A stretch of DNA of 64,000 nucleotides from an uncultured Clostridia bacterium (GTDB taxonomy: Bacteria; Bacillota; Clostridia; UBA1381). Below the pieces are notes generated by a model. It saw only the letters and a program-made list of their open reading frames with translations, was not told the origin of the DNA and made no database searches. Below, one piece after another: positions 4,691 to 56,911 of the stretch. A program made the position numbers and the translations under genes. Position 1 is the first letter of the stretch, and each line of letters starts with the position of its first letter. The stretch covers positions 1 to 64,000 of the forward strand of contig CANRKO010000007.1 of NCBI GenBank assembly GCA_947631235.1. Reading direction: 5' to 3'.

Positions 4691-5482
4691 TTATATAAGT
4701 CCCGATTTTAAATCGTTTATTTTCTTCTTTAAATTGTCCGTTCTTTCTTCCCCGTTCGTGCCGGACGCGATGGCTTTGACTATCGCGCTGCCGACTATAA
4801 CGCCGTCAAAATATCGGCACATATCCTTTACCTGCGCGCCGTTTGAAATGCCGAAACCGACACACGCGGGTATGTCGGAATATTTTTTTATTGTCCCCAC
4901 AAATTCCTCAAAGTTTGTGCCGAACTCCGTCTTTTCGCCCGTCACGCCGAGCGATGAAACGCAGTACAAAAAACCCTTTGAATTTTTCGCTATATCCTTT
5001 ACTCTCTCGTGCGAGATCGGGGACACTAAACTTATCTGATACACGCCGTACTTTTCCGTGTACTCTTTTATCTCGTCGCTTTCCTCGTACGGCAGGTCGG
5101 GTATTATAAGTCCGTCCACACCGACTTCTGCGCAGCGTTTAAAAAATTCCTCCGCGCCGTACTGCACGATTACGTTATAATATAGTAGAAACGCAAGCGG
5201 TATCTCAACCTTATCGCGTATCTTTTCAACAAGCTCGAACACCTTGAATATGTCGCAGCCCGCCTCTATTGCGCGCTCGTCGGCTCGCTGTATCGTCGGA
5301 CCGTCCGCCGACGGGTCGGAAAACGGCACGCCGAGTTCCACAAGGTCAACGCCCTCCGACTGCATTGTAAATATCGCTTTCTCGCTCGTCTCTACGTCGG
5401 GGTCTCCGACCGTCAGAAACGTTATGAGCGCCTTTTTGTTTTCGGCTTTCAGCTTATTAAATCTCTCGTCTATTCTGTTCAT
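4691..5482 (-). CDS. trpA: tryptophan synthase alpha subunit
   Basis: 263 residues, the usual TrpA length. Cleaves indole-3-glycerol phosphate to indole and glyceraldehyde 3-phosphate; needs TrpB as partner. Visible signatures: the catalytic-Glu motif LVELGVPFSDPSADGPTIQ, the catalytic-Asp motif LIIPDLPYEES, and phosphate-binding VGFGIS and GVIVGSAIV. The start overlaps the end of trpF by 26 bases, indicating translational coupling. trpB, normally directly upstream, is missing here. The segment SLVSPIS in place of the family's more usual LVAPTT is encoded by one copy of the TTTAGTGTCCCC motif (5019-5030). Confidence 0.96.
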   Translation of the reverse strand: MNRIDERFNKLKAENKKALITFLTVGDPDVETSEKAIFTMQSEGVDLVELGVPFSDPSADGPTIQRADERAIEAGCDIFKVFELVEKIRDKVEIPLAFLLYYNVIVQYGAEEFFKRCAEVGVDGLIIPDLPYEESDEIKEYTEKYGVYQISLVSPISHERVKDIAKNSKGFLYCVSSLGVTGEKTEFGTNFEEFVGTIKKYSDIPACVGFGISNGAQVKDMCRYFDGVIVGSAIVKAIASGTNGEERTDNLKKKINDLKSGLI

Positions 5483-6727
5483 TGCACAACTTCCTTACCG
5501 TTTCAGTAAATTCTTTTATTTTTGTCTCATCTTTAACGCCGTCCGTCTCAACGGCTGACGACACGTCCATGCAGACGGGCTCGAATATCCGTATCCCCTC
5601 CGCGACGTTGTCCTTGTTTAATCCGCCGGCGAGTATCAGGGGCTTTTTTACTTTAGTGTCCCCAACCGCCGACCAGTCGAACGTCCGACCCGTGCCGCCG
5701 AGTTCCTTCGCGCTGTACTTGTCGAGAAGAATTTTGTCCGCGCCTTCGGTGTCGGGTATTTCTCCACCGTCCTTTACGCGAACGGCTTTCCATATTTCGC
5801 ATTTTACGCCGAGCCGCTTTATATATTCCGCGTCCTCGTCGCCGTGGAGCTGTATTACGTCAAGCCCCACCGTTTCGGCAATTTCGCGCACCGTTTCGGG
5901 TTTTTCGTTCACGAACACGCCCACGGTTTTAGTGTCCCCGTTGAGTTTTCCCGAAAGGCGTTTCGCCGTTTCGGGGGACACATAACGTCTCGTCGGCGCG
6001 AATATAAAGCCTATGTAGTCGGGCTTGTACTTATTTACGATTTCAACGTCCTCATCGCGGCGTATGCCGCATATTTTAATCTCCATAACGAAGTCTCCTC
6101 ACGGCGGCTTTTATGTCTTTCTCGCGCATAAACGCCTCGCCGATAAGAGCCGCGTCGTAATTTAGCGAGCGCAGATACTCAAAATCCGCGTGCGAGCGTA
6201 TCGCGCTTTCCGCGACGCGCACCTTGCCTTCGGGAATGTACGGCATAAGCTTTTCACACGTCGTAATATCCTCCTCGAATGTTGCAAGGTTGCGGTTGTT
6301 TACGCCGATTATATCGCCGTACTCTACCGCGCGCTTTACCTCCTCCGCATTATGTGTCTCAACGAGAGCGTCAAGCTTAAGTTCCTTCGCGAGCGCGGAA
6401 AACCTTTTGTACTCCGCGTCGGTGAGCGCAGCCATTATGAGCAGCACCGCGTCTGCGCCGTAAAGCTTTGCCTCGTATATCTGGTACTCGTCAACAACGA
6501 AATCCTTCCTTAATACGGGGACACTAAAGTTACTTTTTATGTCCCCGACGAATTTTATGTCCCCCTTGAAGTATTCGGGTTCGGTGAGTACAGACAACGC
6601 CTGCACGCCGCACTCCGTATACTCCTTCGCTATCGCCATATGGTCGAAGTCGGGGCGTATCAGTCCCTTTGACGGCGACGCTTTTTTTATTTCGGCTATT
6701 ACCGAAACGTCCTGCGGGGACACTAAA
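5019..6727. repeat. five exact copies of a 12-base motif within the trp genes
   Basis: TTTAGTGTCCCC or its complement occurs at 5019-5030, 5652-5663, 5928-5939, 6517-6528 and 6716-6727. Near copies (one base shorter, TTTATGTCCCC) lie at about 6537-6547 and 6553-6563, and a partial one at about 5974. The copies encode LVSP twice, GDTK twice and FSVP once, so the DNA word rather than a peptide is repeated. More copies lie at 56854-56911. Confidence 0.9.
5457..6086 (-). CDS. trpF: phosphoribosylanthranilate isomerase
   Basis: 209 residues, a TIM-barrel enzyme that isomerises phosphoribosylanthranilate in the tryptophan pathway. Family landmarks: MEIKICGIRRDEDVE with the catalytic Cys at 6, YIGFIFAPTRRYVSPETA, VDVIQLHGDE-like DVIQLHGDEDAEY, KILLDKYSA, GTGRTFDW and PLILAGGLNKDNV, DVSSAVET. 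Both ends overlap neighbours (11 bases with trpC, 26 with trpA). Two GDTK tetrapeptides in this protein are written with the same 12-base word, one between beta strands at KLNGDTKTVG and one at SAVGDTKVKK. Confidence 0.95.
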   Translation of the reverse strand: MEIKICGIRRDEDVEIVNKYKPDYIGFIFAPTRRYVSPETAKRLSGKLNGDTKTVGVFVNEKPETVREIAETVGLDVIQLHGDEDAEYIKRLGVKCEIWKAVRVKDGGEIPDTEGADKILLDKYSAKELGGTGRTFDWSAVGDTKVKKPLILAGGLNKDNVAEGIRIFEPVCMDVSSAVETDGVKDETKIKEFTETVRKLCNEQNRREI

Positions 6728-6855
6728 CTTGTTTTGAACATAGGCTCTGCAAGTTCCTTTTCGCCGAGCCTTTTTATAAGTTCAGCCGGCGGCAGACTCT
6801 CCTTCGCCTTCGCTACCCTTACCCGCGTCGAGGCGAGTATCTTATCCAAAATCAT
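6076..6855 (-). CDS. trpC: indole-3-glycerol phosphate synthase
   Basis: 259 residues; closes the indole ring from carboxyphenylaminodeoxyribulose phosphate. Signatures: VIAEIKKASPSKG (catalytic Lys region), VPVLRKDFVVDEYQI, DAVLLIMAALTD, IGVNNRNLATFE and VAESAIRS, all in the right order for TrpC. It begins 12 bases after trpD and overlaps trpF by 11 bases. Around 6517-6564 it carries three tightly spaced copies or variants of the GGGGACACTAAA word, encoding VGDIKSNFSVP, and another at 6716 encoding SLVSPQ just before the conserved SVIAEIKKASPSKG. Confidence 0.96.
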   Translation of the reverse strand: MILDKILASTRVRVAKAKESLPPAELIKRLGEKELAEPMFKTSLVSPQDVSVIAEIKKASPSKGLIRPDFDHMAIAKEYTECGVQALSVLTEPEYFKGDIKFVGDIKSNFSVPVLRKDFVVDEYQIYEAKLYGADAVLLIMAALTDAEYKRFSALAKELKLDALVETHNAEEVKRAVEYGDIIGVNNRNLATFEEDITTCEKLMPYIPEGKVRVAESAIRSHADFEYLRSLNYDAALIGEAFMREKDIKAAVRRLRYGD

Positions 6856-47098: not shown

Positions 47099-50000
47099 AT
47101 GAAAAAACGATTTATAAGTTTATTGTTGTCGCTGTCGATGTTGGTTTCTATTATTCCGACGGCATTTGCTGATGAAATCGAACCTGATAACTCTGTGCAA
47201 AACAACGAGAACCGTGTTGAGGCAACGGAACCGGCACCAGTTGAAACGCTATCGCCGGACGAAGCGAATGAAGCGGCAGAGGCAACATCTGAACCGATTG
47301 AAACAGCTTCGCCAAGCGTTGAAGCAGAAACACCGGAAGCAACGCCTGCGGAATCGATTACGGCTTCGGATGATGATAGTATTGGGGAGATAGACACATC
47401 TATTCAACTTATGGCAACAGGCACATACTATCCTGAGTATGGATTTTATTTTGATGAAAACAGTGGAACAATAACTGATGCTGATGAAGATATTTCAGGG
47501 TTTTTAAATATTCCTGAAACAACCAGTGGTAAGCCTGTTACTAAAATCAGTAACTATGCATTTCAAGATTGCAAATCACTTACTGGTCTAAATATTCCTA
47601 AGGCTGTTACCAATATAGGCAATAGTGCATTTCAAAATTGCACAAATCTTTCTGAGGTTACACTGAATTATAATAATACCAGAGAATTTGAATGTTCAAT
47701 AGGAAATTATGCTTTCAGTGGCTGTACCAGCCTAAAAAACCTTACAATTCCTGATAGTATAACATATTTAGGAGAACACTTTATAGAAAACACAGCAATA
47801 GAGAGCATAACCGTTCCTAAAAGTATAAAAAGTGTTGGAGCATATTATGGTGGTCCATTTGCAGAGTGTACTACGCTTTCGCATATAACGATAGAGAACG
47901 GTATAACTGCTCTACCAAATAACCTTTTTGATGGTGCTACCTATATAACAAACATCACAATACCCGAATCAGTAACGAGTATAGGACATTCTGCTTTTTT
48001 GAATTGTACAAATCTCAAAAAAATAGATATCCCCAAAGAGGTTAAAAGCATAGGCAATAGTGCATTTCAAAACTGTACAAATTTTTCAGAGGTTACACTG
48101 AATTATAATAATGCCAGAGAGTTTGAATGCTCGATAGGGAATTATGCTTTCAGTGGCTGTACCAGTTTAAAGAATCTTACTATTCCTGATAGTATAACAT
48201 ATTTAGGAGAACACTTTATAGAAAATACAGCAATAGAGAGCATAACCGTTCCTAAAAGTATAAAAAGTGTTGGAGCATATTATGGTGGTCCATTTGCGGA
48301 GTGTACTACGCTTTCGCATATAACGATAGAGAATGGTATAACTGCTTTGCCAAATAACTTTTTTGATGGTGCTACTTATATAACAAACATCACAATACCC
48401 GAATCAGTAACGAGTATAGGACATTCTGCTTTTTTGAATTGTACAAATCTTAAAAAAATAGATATCCCCAAAGCGGTTAAAAGCATAGGCAATAGTGCAT
48501 TTCAAAATTGCACAAATCTTTCTGAGGTTACACTGAATTATAATAATGCCAGAGAATTTGAATGTTCAATAGGAAATTATGCTTTCAGTGGCTGTACCAG
48601 CCTAAAAAATCTTATAATTCCTGATAGTATAACATATTTAGGAGAACACTTTATAGAAAATACAGCAATAGAAAGCATAACTGTTCCTAAAAGTATAAAA
48701 AGTGTTGGAGCATATTATGGCGGTCCATTTGCAGAGTGCACCGCACTTTCACATATAACGATAGAGAACGGTATGACTGCTCTACCAAATAACCTTTTTG
48801 ATGGTGCTACTTATATAACAAACATCACAATACCCGAATCAGTAACGAGTATAGGACATTCTGCTTTTTTGAATTGTACAAATCTTGAAAAAATAGATAT
48901 CCCCAAAAATGTTTCTGTAATTAACACCAGTGCTTTTCAGGCTTGCTCAAATCTGTCACAAGTAACTCTACATTACAATAATGCACGTGAATTTGAACTT
49001 AAGATTTACGATTATGCGTTTAATGGATGCTCAAAATTAACTGAATTGATTTTGCCTGAGAGCGTGACTTACTTAGGACATCATTTTACGGCTGGAACTG
49101 CAATTAGCAATATTACAATACCGAAAAGCATAAAAAGTGTAGGCGAATATTATGGTGGACCTTTTTCCGGAAATATTAATTTGACGTATGTAACTTTAGA
49201 AGATGGTATGACAGCAATCCCTGCAAATCTGTTGAATTATTACCAAAATCCAAGTTACGTGGAAAATGTGACAATTCCAAGCAGCATAACCGACATAGGA
49301 GCGCGCGCTTTCGAGGATTGTGACGCAATAACCGCAGTAGATATTCCTAAAGGGGTTAAAAGTATAGGTCAGGGAGCATTTCAAAATTGTAATAACTTAA
49401 CTAATGTTATTTTTCATGAGAATAATGAGGAAGGGTTTGAATTAAAAATATATGATACAGTATTTCAAGGCTGCTCAAAATTGTCCAAGTTGAATTTGCC
49501 GGACACAGTAACCTATTTAGGTCATCATATGATACAAGGTACATCTATAAGCAGCATAACTGTCCCCAAAAGCGTAACCGGCGTTGGGGCTAATTATGGC
49601 GGTCCTTTTGCGGGCGCAGTATATTTGGATGACATTATATTTGAAGACGGCACTACTGCAATATTTGATTATGAATGTGAGAGCAATTCGGATATGAGCT
49701 ATATTTCAAGAATAGAAATTCCGGCTACTGTTACCAAGATAGGAAGGGGTGCATTTAAAAACTGCACAAAGTTAAAATCTATTAATATTCCCGACAGCGT
49801 TCAAACGATCAGTGATGAGGCATTTTATAATTGTCCTCAACTGAATGTAAGCATAAGTGAATACGCTCCTGCTATTGCTGACTTGATAGATGATGATATA
49901 AGGTTCTTTCTTTCAAAAGAAATAACATCTTATAATCATTTTACATACAGTAATACAGATTATTACTCAAAAGCAAACGAAATGACTGGTTATGTACCGT

Positions 50001-52558
50001 TTGAATTGAAGTATGAGCTTAAAGATAATGTTTCCGTCACCAATAAGAAGATAGTGGTCAGAATACCGAATCAGTCAACACTCGTTGAAAGCACATTAAA
50101 ACTTGACGGAATACTGCTTCAAAATTATACATATGAAAACAATCTGCTTACAATTCCGGTAGAAGCTAATAAAGCAGATATAACTTTCTGTGTAAAACCT
50201 ACCGAATACACTACATTACTGACATACGCAAAAATGGATTTTACTGAAAATAACGAAAATAAATCCGAAATAATAGGCGTTATAAACTGCTCGATACCTG
50301 ATATTTCAATAAAAGCGGACAGTCTTACAAACAATGGCAGAGTAACCGTAGAAGGAATTGCGCCGCCGTCAAGCACGGTTGATTTCTATATAGGCGATGA
50401 AAAAGTCGGTACGACAACAGCTATAAAATCAGGAAACTACAAGACTACCGTAGATATTCCTTCGCCGGAAAATTATAAGAAATATACAATAACGGCTCAA
50501 ACTGAAAAGGACGGTGAACGTGTAGACGCTGAAGGCACGGTAGTATATCAAGAGGCGGCTCCCGCTTTGAAATCACTGGTAATGTATTACGGAGACCACA
50601 CAAGCACGCATAAGTATGAGCTTACAAATAACAGCACTGCGAAGCCGACGATTGTATTTTATCCGTCAAGCGGATTCAAATTTGAAGTGGAATTTGAAAA
50701 TGCGGAAAACATAGATAAGGTGAGGATCGTAAGCACGCGCAATAATCAGAGAAAATATATGCCGGCTTATTGGGACGAAACCGCTAAATGCTATGTAGCA
50801 CAAGGACATTTCGAAGATACAAATCCCTCAAGCTATGTTCCGGGTGAGATAACGGTAGAGTATCTGCAAAAGAGCGAACCATATTTGTTCGGTGATGAAA
50901 TTGATTTCACATCGGCTGAATACGCAAACACGCTGCCCGAAGCGTGGGAGGGCGCAAAGGTAACATTAACCGACGAAAATGGCGACGAAATGGCACAAAT
51001 ACAACTTACGGAGGTTTCTTTAGACAGTCTGAGCGGTGTTATTGATTTTTATAATACTCTCAAAGGAAAACTCGAATTTAACATTTTGTCAGAGGTTATT
51101 CCGGAGCATATAAATAAACAAAACGCTTCAGAGTATGGATACGAACGAGTTGTTGACGAAGTCGGCGAAGAGCTGTATGTCAAAGTCGCGGAAGAAGCGG
51201 ACAGTAAAATTCAAAGCGAAGTCATTGACTTTGCAAAGGGAAAAGTTTCAAGTTTCCTTATAGAAAATAAATATTATGGTGCAGATATGGCGCTTGATAA
51301 TATAAGCTCTATTACGTCTGTGTTGGGTGATGTTGATAAGATTGTGACATATAACAACAATCGGGTAGACATTAATAATGCGCGGCAGAATGTATTAAAT
51401 TCATCGTGGAGTCCGGAAGAAAAGCAAGAAAGATTACATCGTCTTGATATTGCTGAAAAGTCAAACAATGCCGAACTTGCGGTTTTAGCGCTGTCAACAA
51501 TATTAGCTGTGTCAGGGATCGGACTTCCGCCTGTGTGCGCTTTGGTTTTAACGGCGTTATCGTATCAAAATACGATGGAAATTGAATATGCTCTCGGCGA
51601 TTGGGATAATTATATAGACTATATGAGCTCCGGAGTGGGATTTCTGTTTAACTGGTCTGTAGACCCAAGCGGATATGTTTATGAAGCGGTAACGAACAAT
51701 AGAGTTGAGGGCGTAGCGGCAACGGCTTATTGGATAGCTCCGGATTATATTGACGAGAACGGTAAAGGAGATGAATCTAAAGCCGTGCTTTGGGACGCAT
51801 CGGAATACGCCCAGATGAATCCGATACTTACAGACGGAATGGGCGCATACGCGTGGGACGTTCCCGAAGGATTATGGCAAGTCAAGTACGAAAAGGACGG
51901 ATATGAAACGCAGTACAGCGATTGGCTGCCCGTTCCTCCGCCGCAGACAAATGTGAATATCGGATTAGTATCTAAAGCTGTTCCTAAAGTAGAGAGCGCT
52001 GTTTTGACTTCGAATACTCTGGCAATTACATTTGATAAGTATATGAAGCCCGACACAGTTACCAATGTTAAAATAAGCGGATACACATATACAATGGACT
52101 ACAGCAAAGATGAAACTGCTCCCGACGGAACGGTTTACGCAAGAACATACACCTTCAACTTGAACGAGCCTGTTTCTGAAGGGGAAAGTGTTCCGGTTTC
52201 AATAAGCAATGCCGAAAGCTACGCAGGCACGAAAATGGTCGCGTATAACGAGGACGTTGTTTGCTCCAATAGTGTAGAGAATGAATATTTAGCACGCGTT
52301 GAAAATGTATCTGAGGATAAATCAAATAAGACTGTATCGGCAGATATTATAAATATTTCAGATAAAATGCAGTCATTTGACGCTATATGCGCAATATATG
52401 ACGCGAGTGGCAGACTGACAGGGCTGAAAACAATGCCTATAGTCGGATTAGCCAAAGAGGAATCGTGGAGAGCTGTTTTCAAATTTGATACGGAATGGAG
52501 CAGCTATAAAATATTTGTATGGGACAGCTTAAATGGCATGAAACCGCTGTCGGAATAA
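47099..52558 (+). CDS. giant BspA-type leucine-rich-repeat surface protein
   Basis: 1819 residues. Signal peptide 1-25 (after AFA), then an acidic Glu/Thr/Ala-rich stretch to about 110. Residues about 125-925 are LRR_5 (BspA, Treponema pallidum-type) repeats such as IPESVTSIGHSAFLNCTNLKKI. Beta-sandwich and Big/PKD-like segments (950-1150), an alpha-helical part (1300-1490, with a hydrophobic helix around LAVLALSTILAVSGIGLPPVC), a carboxypeptidase-regulatory-like segment, a Big-like strand set and a C-terminal module ending SSYKIFVWDSLNGMKPLSE follow. No SLH or LPxTG. BspA-type proteins bind host or matrix proteins. AT-richer than the chromosome. Confidence 0.92.
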   Translation: MKKRFISLLLSLSMLVSIIPTAFADEIEPDNSVQNNENRVEATEPAPVETLSPDEANEAAEATSEPIETASPSVEAETPEATPAESITASDDDSIGEIDTSIQLMATGTYYPEYGFYFDENSGTITDADEDISGFLNIPETTSGKPVTKISNYAFQDCKSLTGLNIPKAVTNIGNSAFQNCTNLSEVTLNYNNTREFECSIGNYAFSGCTSLKNLTIPDSITYLGEHFIENTAIESITVPKSIKSVGAYYGGPFAECTTLSHITIENGITALPNNLFDGATYITNITIPESVTSIGHSAFLNCTNLKKIDIPKEVKSIGNSAFQNCTNFSEVTLNYNNAREFECSIGNYAFSGCTSLKNLTIPDSITYLGEHFIENTAIESITVPKSIKSVGAYYGGPFAECTTLSHITIENGITALPNNFFDGATYITNITIPESVTSIGHSAFLNCTNLKKIDIPKAVKSIGNSAFQNCTNLSEVTLNYNNAREFECSIGNYAFSGCTSLKNLIIPDSITYLGEHFIENTAIESITVPKSIKSVGAYYGGPFAECTALSHITIENGMTALPNNLFDGATYITNITIPESVTSIGHSAFLNCTNLEKIDIPKNVSVINTSAFQACSNLSQVTLHYNNAREFELKIYDYAFNGCSKLTELILPESVTYLGHHFTAGTAISNITIPKSIKSVGEYYGGPFSGNINLTYVTLEDGMTAIPANLLNYYQNPSYVENVTIPSSITDIGARAFEDCDAITAVDIPKGVKSIGQGAFQNCNNLTNVIFHENNEEGFELKIYDTVFQGCSKLSKLNLPDTVTYLGHHMIQGTSISSITVPKSVTGVGANYGGPFAGAVYLDDIIFEDGTTAIFDYECESNSDMSYISRIEIPATVTKIGRGAFKNCTKLKSINIPDSVQTISDEAFYNCPQLNVSISEYAPAIADLIDDDIRFFLSKEITSYNHFTYSNTDYYSKANEMTGYVPFELKYELKDNVSVTNKKIVVRIPNQSTLVESTLKLDGILLQNYTYENNLLTIPVEANKADITFCVKPTEYTTLLTYAKMDFTENNENKSEIIGVINCSIPDISIKADSLTNNGRVTVEGIAPPSSTVDFYIGDEKVGTTTAIKSGNYKTTVDIPSPENYKKYTITAQTEKDGERVDAEGTVVYQEAAPALKSLVMYYGDHTSTHKYELTNNSTAKPTIVFYPSSGFKFEVEFENAENIDKVRIVSTRNNQRKYMPAYWDETAKCYVAQGHFEDTNPSSYVPGEITVEYLQKSEPYLFGDEIDFTSAEYANTLPEAWEGAKVTLTDENGDEMAQIQLTEVSLDSLSGVIDFYNTLKGKLEFNILSEVIPEHINKQNASEYGYERVVDEVGEELYVKVAEEADSKIQSEVIDFAKGKVSSFLIENKYYGADMALDNISSITSVLGDVDKIVTYNNNRVDINNARQNVLNSSWSPEEKQERLHRLDIAEKSNNAELAVLALSTILAVSGIGLPPVCALVLTALSYQNTMEIEYALGDWDNYIDYMSSGVGFLFNWSVDPSGYVYEAVTNNRVEGVAATAYWIAPDYIDENGKGDESKAVLWDASEYAQMNPILTDGMGAYAWDVPEGLWQVKYEKDGYETQYSDWLPVPPPQTNVNIGLVSKAVPKVESAVLTSNTLAITFDKYMKPDTVTNVKISGYTYTMDYSKDETAPDGTVYARTYTFNLNEPVSEGESVPVSISNAESYAGTKMVAYNEDVVCSNSVENEYLARVENVSEDKSNKTVSADIINISDKMQSFDAICAIYDASGRLTGLKTMPIVGLAKEESWRAVFKFDTEWSSYKIFVWDSLNGMKPLSE
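47621..48925 (+). repeat. three tandem 435-base repeats inside the BspA-type gene
   Basis: Units start at 47621, 48056 and 48491, each 145 codons, differing by a few bases (for example AGAG/AGCG near the unit end). Two weaker units follow with a similar period. Likely expanding or contracting by recombination. Confidence 0.95.
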
Positions 52559-52765: not shown

Positions 52766-53236
52766 ATGAGGAATGAAATAAAGTCGTTGGAGCATTCAAA
52801 ATACAGATGTCAGTATCATATAGTATTTGCGCCAAAATATAGGAGGAAGGCAATCTATGGCAAGCTGAAGGCGGACATAGGAAAAATCATACGCAAGCTG
52901 TGTGAAGAAAGGAAGGTAGAACTCATAGAAGCGGAAGCATGTCCGGAACATATACATATGCTGGTAAGCATACCTCCATATATGAGTGTATCACAATTTG
53001 TAGGATATATCAAGAGCAAAAGTGAGCTGATGATATTTGACCGACATGCGAATCTGAAGTACAGATATGGACGGAGGAATTTTTGGGCGAGAGGATATTT
53101 TGTTGACACGGTAGGGAAGAACGAGAAATTAATCAGGGAATACATACGGAATCAGTTGGAGGAAGATTATGCCACGGATCAAATATCGATAGAGGAGTAT
53201 ATGGATCCGTTTACTGGAAAGCCGAGGAAAGGCTAA
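52766..53236 (+). CDS. tnpA: IS200-type Y1 transposase
   Basis: 156 residues. HUH motif His62-Ile-His64 (CPEHIHMLVSIP) and the likely nucleophile Tyr126 in LIREYIRNQ; the KYRCQYHIVFAPKYRR start is typical. Length is standard for IS200 TnpA, and all catalytic residues are present, so the element may be active. Moves by single-strand excision and insertion via subterminal hairpins. Confidence 0.95.
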   Translation: MRNEIKSLEHSKYRCQYHIVFAPKYRRKAIYGKLKADIGKIIRKLCEERKVELIEAEACPEHIHMLVSIPPYMSVSQFVGYIKSKSELMIFDRHANLKYRYGRRNFWARGYFVDTVGKNEKLIREYIRNQLEEDYATDQISIEEYMDPFTGKPRKG

Positions 53237-54441: not shown

Positions 54442-56142
54442 ATGAGACAGTCAAATACGAAAAAAGAATTAACAGCGGCTCTGTATGTCAGGCTCAGCCG
54501 CGACGATAACTTGGAAGGCGACAGCTACAGTATCGTAAATCAGAAAAAACTGCTTACGAAAGTGGCAAAAGAGAAAGGATATACCAACCTTTTGACGTAT
54601 TGCGATGACGGAATTTCGGGCGTTACGATGGATCGCCCCGGCTATAAGCAGATGATAAGCGATATTAAAAGCAACAAAATTTCCGCTGTATTCGTAAAGG
54701 ACTTATCGCGATTGGGGCGAAACTATATCGAGGTTGGCAGACTGACTGAGGAATTTTTCCCCGACTATGATATTCGTTTCGTTGCCGTTTCGGATAACAT
54801 TGACACCCAAGATGGCGAGAATGAGCTTGCGCCGATAAAGAATCTGTTCAATGAGTGGTATGCCCGCGACATTTCTAAGAAGCGGAGGATAAGCAATAAA
54901 ATCAAGGGCAATTCCGGCGAGCCGATGGGTCAGCCGCCATATGGGTATATGAAAAATCCCGATAATCACAAGCGTTGGGTAATAGACGAGGAAGCGGCTT
55001 CGGTGGTGCGGAGGATATTTCAAATGGCGATTGACGGGTTTGGAACAGAGGAAATCGCGTCGGCTTTGGAGCGTGATAAAATACTAACGCCCACAAACTA
55101 TTGGGCGAGCAAAGGCATTAACAGACCGGGGAAGAAAAATCCCGATAATCCGTATCAGTGGAATTGCTCGACCATAGTCCATATTCTCAGCCTGCAGGAA
55201 TATTGCGGCGACATACTCAATTTCAAGACATATTCAAAATCGTATAAAAACAAAAAGCGAATTGATAATGACAGGGAAAATTGGGTTGTGTTCAAAGACG
55301 TTCACGAGCCGATAATCGAGCGTGCCGTGTGGGAAAAGATACAGGCAAAGCGAGGTAAGGCTCGCAAACGAAAGAAATTCGACGGTGAAAAGAATATGTT
55401 TTCCGGCTTGCTTGTATGCGCGGACTGCGGCAGCAATTTATGGTATCACTTCAACCAAAAAAATCCAAGTATTGAATATTTCAACTGCTCCGGCTACAAC
55501 AAAGGCGGCAGAAAGATTTGCTCTTCAACACACTACATACGGCTCGATTTTCTCGAAAAGGTTGTGCTCGGAGAAATCAGACGGCTCACAAAACTGGCGA
55601 CAAAATATGAGAGTGAGTTTCTGAAACTTGTTATCGGTCAATCCACAAAAGACGCAGAACACGAACGACAGGTTAAGCAAAAGGAGTTAAAAACGCTGCT
55701 CGCCAGAGATAAGGAGCTCGATGTGCTGTTTGAGAAAATCTACGAGGATAACGCTATGGGACGTCTTTCCGATGAACGCTTCGGCAAGCTGTCCGTGAAA
55801 TACGACGCAGAGCAAAAAGAGTTGAATAAACAAATAAACGAGCTTCAAGCGGAATTGGACAGCGATAAAAACAAAAGTGTTTCCACGGACGAGTTTATGG
55901 CAATAGTCCGCAAATACACGCGGGCGAGGAAATTAACGCCAAGAATGCTTAATGAGCTTATAGAGAAAATAGAGGTTTATCAGGCTGAAATAATCGACGG
56001 AAAGAAGGTACAGCGACTGAAAATATATTATAACTGTATCGGCTCAATAGAGATACCGGATTTGGACTTGATACCGGATAATGCGGTGACAGTAAATACG
56101 CGGCAGGGCGTGGATATAAATTTCGCGGGCGCTGCCTTGTAA
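54442..56142 (+). CDS. large serine recombinase (TnpX-like)
   Basis: 566 residues. N-terminal resolvase domain with catalytic Ser19 (LYVRLSRDD), VKDLSRLGRNYIEVGRL and the E-helix; a recombinase domain (GYMKNPDNHKRWVIDEEAASVVRRIF ... YCGDILNFKTY); a zinc-ribbon (GLLVCADCGSNLWY ... FNCSGYNKGGRKIC); and a coiled-coil C-terminal part (KQKELKTLLARDKELDVLFE). All intact. Catalyses integration and excision of its element at short core sites. Right behind it stand a 14-bp hairpin and tRNA-Arg. Confidence 0.95.
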   Translation: MRQSNTKKELTAALYVRLSRDDNLEGDSYSIVNQKKLLTKVAKEKGYTNLLTYCDDGISGVTMDRPGYKQMISDIKSNKISAVFVKDLSRLGRNYIEVGRLTEEFFPDYDIRFVAVSDNIDTQDGENELAPIKNLFNEWYARDISKKRRISNKIKGNSGEPMGQPPYGYMKNPDNHKRWVIDEEAASVVRRIFQMAIDGFGTEEIASALERDKILTPTNYWASKGINRPGKKNPDNPYQWNCSTIVHILSLQEYCGDILNFKTYSKSYKNKKRIDNDRENWVVFKDVHEPIIERAVWEKIQAKRGKARKRKKFDGEKNMFSGLLVCADCGSNLWYHFNQKNPSIEYFNCSGYNKGGRKICSSTHYIRLDFLEKVVLGEIRRLTKLATKYESEFLKLVIGQSTKDAEHERQVKQKELKTLLARDKELDVLFEKIYEDNAMGRLSDERFGKLSVKYDAEQKELNKQINELQAELDSDKNKSVSTDEFMAIVRKYTRARKLTPRMLNELIEKIEVYQAEIIDGKKVQRLKIYYNCIGSIEIPDLDLIPDNAVTVNTRQGVDINFAGAAL

Positions 56143-56387: not shown

Positions 56388-56843
56388 ATGAGATTTGTAT
56401 GGTATTACGACTTCCCTATCGGCAAAATCGCGATAGCGAGCGAGGGCGGATACATAACCGACATAACCTTCGGCTACGCGGACGGCATCGAACATGAAAC
56501 GGCTGAAACGGCTGCGTGCGCAAAGGAGCTTTGGGAATACTTCGACGGCGAGCGCAGGGAATTTGACATTAAAATAAAATACGACGGCACGCCGTTCACT
56601 CGCGCGGTACTCGAACAGACGATGAAAATACCCTACGGCGAAACGCGTTCCTACGGCGATGTTGCGCGTATGGTTAATAACCCGCGTGCGGCACGGGCGG
56701 TCGGCAACGCGATACACCGCAACCGTCTGCTCATCGTTATCCCCTGTCACAGAATTATACAGGGAGACGGCTCGCTCGGCGTCTACGCGGGGCGCGAGGA
56801 TATTAAACGCCGACTTTTAAGCCTTGAAAAACATAATATCTGA
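56388..56843 (+). CDS. ogt: methylated-DNA--protein-cysteine methyltransferase
   Basis: 151 residues from the ATG at 56388 (GGGGTGA five bases before; a GTG at 56379 also in frame). Active-site VIPCHRIIQGDGSLGVYAG, and helix-turn-helix DVARMVNNPRAARAVGNAIH. Repairs O6-alkylguanine by a suicidal transfer to Cys. Monocistronic. Confidence 0.96.
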   Translation: MRFVWYYDFPIGKIAIASEGGYITDITFGYADGIEHETAETAACAKELWEYFDGERREFDIKIKYDGTPFTRAVLEQTMKIPYGETRSYGDVARMVNNPRAARAVGNAIHRNRLLIVIPCHRIIQGDGSLGVYAGREDIKRRLLSLEKHNI

Positions 56844-56853
56844 ACGTAAAAAT

Positions 56854-56911
56854 GGGGACACTAAAATTTTAGTGTCCCTGTATTTTAGTGTCCCTCAACT
56901 TTAGTGTCCCC
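56854..56911. repeat. cluster of four TTTAGTGTCCC motifs
   Basis: GGGGACACTAAA at 56854-56865, then TTTTAGTGTCCC at 56867-56878 (these two form a near-perfect palindrome), TTTTAGTGTCCC at 56883-56894 and TTTAGTGTCCCC at 56900-56911. It lies between two convergent genes; the palindrome could act as a terminator, but the third and fourth copies are direct. Confidence 0.9.

Follow-up and report, generated by a model that had tools for sequence, protein, structure and literature searches.

The window analyzed here is a 64,000-nucleotide stretch of DNA from an uncultured Clostridia bacterium (contig CANRKO010000007.1, positions 1 to 64,000), in which a 12-letter word, TTTAGTGTCCCC, recurs inside the tryptophan biosynthesis genes trpA, trpF and trpC and in intergenic DNA. 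We propose that this word is the likely binding site of a catalytically dead relative of the REP-associated tyrosine transposases (RAYTs; REP, repetitive extragenic palindrome), which would control expression of its own gene and slow down or halt transcription behind or inside other genes, a reading to which we assign a probability slightly above one half (about 0.55). Four groups of observations carry it: a RAYT-like protein lacking the catalytic motifs is found in every examined genome of the genus, its promoter contains the word or a close variant at a fixed distance from the -10 box across genera, inverted pairs of the word lie near gene 3' ends, and copies of the word inside trp genes are conserved as DNA.

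Abundance and distribution of the word

The window contains seven exact copies of the word, five within the trp genes and two in an intergenic array. With up to two mismatches allowed, there are 16 matches, whereas 100 shuffles gave 2.81 on average and 7 at most (0/100 reached 16). The source genome (2.09 Mb, 86% complete) contains 113 exact copies versus 0 of the reversed control word, and 149 versus 10 at one mismatch or fewer, confirming the genome-wide excess that a preliminary description of the window, made from its letters, had proposed as a check. Positions are available for 100 of these 113 copies, and the stretches analyzed comprise those, the window and contig C7.

The exact word is present in all 16 examined genomes of the genus (8 to 151 copies) and in certain other genera of the family, while 16 genomes from other families of the same order have 0 or 1 exact copies. 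In a class-wide sample of 391 genomes, 376 lie outside the family; 16 of those have one or two copies and the others none. Counts of TTTAGTGTCCC range from 27 to 167 in g1, from 24 to 60 in g4, g6 and g22, from 3 to 63 in g10 and from 0 to 10 elsewhere. Among named genomes, the word occurs as an inverted pair in metagenome-assembled genomes of uncultured Clostridia, Oscillospiraceae and Bacillota, mostly of the 'Lapin' series (80 listed of 91 stretches), and a search for the pair in viral contigs found none. The word was not found described as a repeat in the literature searched, where only 11-letter forms appeared, in four papers on unrelated work.

A RAYT-like protein without catalytic residues

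The predicted fold of one 172-aa protein encoded in the source genome (G000:C2, locus L306) identifies it as a RAYT relative with a Y1 transposase fold (fold comparison, match 4er8). A sequence-profile search of the PDB returned nothing up to E 1, and the diverged protein is missed by the Pfam Y1_Tnp model. Homologues and longer relatives were aligned (A1; 30 of the homologues from the examined genomes, three longer relatives and 32 of 35 database proteins). Neither histidine of the HuH motif is present in 57 of the 65 aligned homologues, the source-genome protein reading EIR, and the catalytic Y---NP motif is found in 0/65. Among the matches listed in a search for inactive or domesticated RAYTs, no title or abstract described a HuH-less RAYT of this kind. 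LPSWLL forms the C-terminus of 52/65 homologues (L306 and its homologues), preceded by a Lys/Pro/Glu-rich, low-confidence linker, and in the three longer relatives the final residues are ..WLL; this tail may dock a partner protein.

Each of the 16 genus genomes encodes a single close homologue, with a second, distant match in G002 and a copy cut by the contig end in G012. The RAYT-like tree broadly tracks the genera, certain nodes being weakly supported, as for a single-copy, vertically inherited gene. In 26/33 loci the gene is followed by the same downstream neighbor (score above 400), a polysaccharide deacetylase as judged by eye.

In g1, g4, g6, g22 and g21 the word, or a close variant, is located 14 nt before an extended -10 box of the RAYT-like gene; the distance is larger by eleven, at 25 nt, in two g10 genomes and G019. 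A pattern search of the upstream side found the word in 27/33 loci, so that the gene is generally flanked on this side by its own repeat, and the gap is 14 nt in 23 of 25 aligned promoters. Fifteen of these 25 also have an inverted partial word directly upstream of the start codon. In the source genome the RAYT-like open reading frame (ORF) is itself counted among the 22 word-bearing ORFs described below, but there the word precedes the MAR start and is probably untranslated.

Words inside genes

All three trp genes lie on the minus strand: trpA (4691..5482, TIGR00262), trpF (5457..6086, best NCBIfam model just under its cut-off) and trpC (6076..6855, assigned by NCBIfam). trpA contains one exact word, at 5019..5030 (-), which encodes SLVSP and is spelled TTA GTG TCC CC in 12/26 homologues, and the variant TTTATTGTCCCC at 4887..4898 (+). 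trpF contains two exact words, at 5652..5663 (+) and 5928..5939 (+), both read as GDTK, and the variant TTATGTGTCCCC at 5974..5985 (-); both this and the trpA variant are conserved in part of the genus. trpC contains exact words at 6517..6528 (-), read as FSVP, and 6716..6727 (-), read as SLVSP, and two copies of the variant TTTTATGTCCCC, at 6535..6546 (+), conserved in the five closest genomes, and 6553..6564 (+), conserved in 9/12 aligned genus members and not kept in G014, G002 and G015. The two TTTTATGTCCCC copies (6535-6564) are 18 nt apart, the one at 6553 being GGG GAC ATA AAA on the coding strand. The five exact copies and their readings (LVSP twice, GDTK twice and FSVP) had been described correctly before, as had the near copies at 5974 and 6553; a third, placed at about 6537, is at 6535.

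Codon alignments were made for the trp words (30 TrpC, 23 TrpF and 26 TrpA loci, the rows of G015 TrpC and G051 TrpA being incomplete). The word positions line up in place with those of word-free congeners and near genera, the exceptions being one extra residue beside an additional word in G006 and a single-residue gap that three distant homologues show at one site of TrpC. LVSP is present in 24/26 TrpA homologues, 12 times spelled by the word and 12 times by other codons. That the same TrpA residues occur with other codons, an outcome that the preliminary description would have taken as a refutation, argues against insertion and against a conserved peptide, and for selection on the DNA word. 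Compared with six distant congeners, exact word sites are identical in 15/29 comparisons versus 363/7344 for other 12-mers; among comparisons with unchanged residues, the counts become 7/7 versus 349/2555. The DNA word, not the peptide, is conserved, as the preliminary description held, and new coding sites appear, from these alignments, to arise via point substitution rather than insertion. The preliminary description also placed the copies in less conserved loops; this is wrong for TrpA, in view of the LVSP count, and questionable at the FSVP site of TrpC, immediately beside the conserved LRKDF.

The trp sites also differ in places between genomes. G045 (genus g4) has two trp sites in common with g1 and one of its own. 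In G006 (C10, L208:1605-1643) a second trpC word, the one with the added residue, lies 27 nt before the first and is possibly a recent gain. In G015 (C6:33721-34567) the trpC match is split into two parts separated by about 50 bases, with the break close to a word.

Across the fetched loci, selected (except for trp) because they contain words, 257 coding words were found in 173 ORFs (gene calls are longest-ORF heuristics). On the coding strand GGGGACACTAAA is read in frame 0 in 138 cases and in frame 2 in 75, in total 213/257, and the reverse orientation in frame 2 in 27 and in frame 0 in 17; the remaining third reading frame would contain a stop. The 46 coding words of the source genome are concentrated in 22 ORFs; at least two words are present in 13 of these, compared with 0.57 such ORFs expected at random (assuming 1900 ORFs). 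Proteins were named by NCBIfam for a part of the word-bearing set, 20 outside trp. In the source genome the word-bearing genes named are trpA, trpC, hydF, hypD, hypE, glucuronate isomerase and mutL, with a U32 protein related to trhP below cut-off; in G003 they are cbiF, cbiET, cobB, cobQ, hemA, hemC and genes with cysG- and cobA-type domains, with cbiG-like and cobU-like proteins below cut-off. Words thus occur in cobalamin, heme and hydrogenase-maturation genes, among others. Tandem coding words that give GDTK repeats are found in a 966-aa and a 95-aa ORF (L032:3277-3324 and L036:4017-4073), resembling the intergenic arrays.

Intergenic copies

Intergenic copies are mostly inverted pairs, GGGGACACTAAA followed after usually 2 nt by TTTAGTGTCCCC, often with additional half-words. 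In the source genome 16/24 intergenic clusters contain a pair, and for most of them the distance to a stop codon is no more than 40 bp. By the longest-ORF heuristic, 10 of the 24 clusters are between convergent, 13 between tandem and one between divergent ORFs; the 87 clusters in named relatives comprise 52 convergent, 18 tandem and 7 divergent cases, with another 10 at an edge. The array in the window (56854..56911, unstranded) consists of two exact words, 56854(-) and 56900(+), and two one-mismatch words (56868 and 56884), the first two words forming an inverted pair. The ORFs on its two sides are convergent, their stop codons enclosing the array (ORF ends at 56843 and 56914), although the script counted it as tandem. 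As RNA, the pair at 56845-56882 has a predicted fold of -18.4 kcal/mol (z -6.3). A T-rich stretch (at least 5 T in 8) follows 12/15 source-genome pairs and 62/80 pairs in relatives, whose stretches (80 listed of 91) hold pairs by construction. In position, T-rich tail and predicted folding, the inverted pairs look like intrinsic terminators. When source-genome word places were paired with loci of close relatives, 49/50 shared words, a figure biased upward since these loci were picked for holding a pair. Arrays vary by whole units, growing and shrinking in place, and by eye the spacers change more than the words. Outside trp, this array holds the only exact copies in the window; three further matches with two mismatches (41909, 51197 and 56085) may be due to chance.

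Proposed function and alternatives

From these sequence comparisons we infer that the RAYT-like protein would bind the word, its promoter copy serving as an autoregulatory operator and bound words as roadblocks or terminators. A RAYT ancestor would have lost the HuH and Y---NP chemistry and retained binding of the word; the promoter word would act as the operator for autoregulation, and the inverted pairs near gene 3' ends would be 3'-end elements. Within certain genes, of which many are metabolic, the words would serve as regulatory sites. Words bound behind or within genes might slow or end transcription, a mechanistic guess to be set beside the occurrence of coding words in both orientations, unequally. 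That the word goes with protein binding, as proposed in the preliminary description, is probable. A further step, advanced tentatively and as possible rather than probable, is that a RAYT has turned into a genome-wide regulator, the old repeat having become a binding code written by point mutation into the coding sequence of metabolic operons, where the intragenic word, not the promoter, would set expression. At least one account calls the exact function of RAYTs unknown (PMC8049555). Loss of catalysis while protein, promoter site and genomic word are all kept would separate host function from mobility. If the proposal is true, the protein should bind the word, repress the promoter of its own gene and alter transcription across the trp and cbi genes, and the coding words would be a case of sites kept within coding sequence at the cost of codon choice.

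Several observations weigh against this proposal. Some concern the mechanism: the orientation bias of the coding words is not predicted by a duplex roadblock and may reflect peptide tolerance or an RNA-level role, known RAYTs are reported to recognize REP DNA that is single-stranded and carries a GTAG motif (PMC3733652, PMC8266576), a lone word in a gene cannot fold a hairpin alone, and the positions of coding words along ORFs show no clear departure from uniform (Kolmogorov-Smirnov p 0.07). Others concern conservation. Variant words in trp are exact in just 7/24 comparisons, and G014, which is nested among word carriers in the trp tree, encodes the protein and carries words in cobalamin, heme-pathway and U32 genes but none in trp, where it keeps 0/5 sites. 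The link between protein and word is supported by a TTTWGTGTCCC count that rises with closeness of the homologue (Spearman 0.76 over 70 family genomes, 0.54 without the genus), but this correlation is uncorrected for relatedness. The link is also imperfect: g21 has lost much of the HuH motif too, yet has few words, and G070 (88% complete) has 43 relaxed words and no homologue was found in it. The homologue alignment favors close relatives of the source-genome protein. No promoter word was found in 6/33 loci (G024, G041, G054, G049, G016 and G023), and the 25 aligned promoters were picked by the word pattern, so that conservation of their word, though not the fixed gap, is partly by construction. 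Finally, covariation between operator and genomic words at position 4 failed, because g4, g6 and g22 have T in the operator and mostly A in the genomic words.

The strongest rival, which we consider unlikely, is that the word is read by another DNA-binding protein or a methylase, for which the RAYT-like gene would be just one regulated target among others. A site at one promoter cannot distinguish an autoregulator from a foreign regulator, and the failed covariation also suits this explanation. Against it, RAYTs commonly have copies of their own repeat on the flanks of the gene (PMC6006769), and the promoter arrangement goes with the RAYT-like gene: 22/26 matches with a gap of exactly 14 nt precede it, among examined loci that include RAYT-like ones by choice. 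For gaps of 13-15 nt the proportion is 22/38, seven of the 16 non-RAYT matches beginning within an inverted pair.

Improbable as well is a DNA-uptake or transfer tag, comparable to the DNA uptake sequences (DUS) of Neisseria and the uptake signal sequences (USS) of Haemophilus, in which pairs double as terminators, singles arise by point mutation and biased uptake spreads them. In DUS and USS systems inverted pairs act as terminators and single copies are found in genes. The pairs near 3' ends, the single ORF words in two frames per orientation, their substitution in place and the patchy trp operon of the family (a trpC match in 37/70 genomes) would all fit. The words are, on the other hand, strongly clustered in few ORFs rather than evenly spread, the exact copies outside trp in the window are confined to one array, and about 100 copies per genome is far below DUS and USS numbers. 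No report of uptake words in Clostridia was among the literature matches listed.

Insertion of the copies as REPs by an active RAYT is very improbable. The pairs near 3' ends do resemble REP dimers and a RAYT relative is present, but coding words replace codons in place, close relatives share word places in the selected loci described above, the catalytic residues are lost and a GT[AG]G foot lies beside 0/15 source-genome and 0/80 relatives' pairs. Active insertion was rejected on these grounds; of the earlier suggestion of a REP-like or RAYT-associated element the RAYT association thus survives and the inserting mini-element does not. Chance or peptide-level selection has practically no prospect: GDTK and LVSP suit some native loops, so that some sites needed few changes, but 113 words versus 0 reversed, two reading frames per orientation and synonymous positions fixed to the word speak against it.

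The window also encodes an ordinary IS200/IS605 transposase (52766-53236, +) with hairpin-like flanking repeats, the genome's sole Pfam Y1_Tnp match. It was rejected as the source of the words, which persist in genomes without such a match (e.g. G006, G007, G011, G015 and G018). By eye from the translations, a large surface-protein-like ORF with internal repeats (47099-52558) lies on one side of it and a serine-recombinase-like ORF (54442-56142) on the other.

Comparison with known systems

The closest counterpart is RAYT/TnpAREP (class 2 TnpAY1, PMC6006769) with its REP/REPIN repeats, which shares the predicted fold (4er8), one close homologue per genome, a repeat of its own beside the gene and inverted pairs near gene 3' ends. 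It differs in that here the HuH histidines and Y---NP are gone, the pairs are without the GT[AG]G foot, the ORF sites appear to be made by substitution, the protein ends in LPSWLL and the word stands at a fixed distance from the -10 box. Unlike inserted REPs, the trp words align in place with word-free congeners.

With the DUS of Neisseria and the USS of Pasteurellaceae, our system shares a short word, inverted pairs as (here predicted) terminators and single copies in genes. The words described here are, in contrast, clustered in certain operons, number about a hundred and accompany a RAYT-like gene.

TldR proteins are RNA-guided transcription factors (PMC13418256). They descend from TnpB, whereas the protein described here derives from TnpA/RAYT and would recognize a DNA word of fixed sequence. 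In TldR, as proposed for the present protein, an enzyme of an IS200/IS605-related element lost catalysis and became a regulator. Intragenic REPs and the Rickettsia palindromic element (RPE) likewise place repeats inside ORFs, but these are described as residue-adding insertions (PMC3733652), whereas the words described here replace codons in place.
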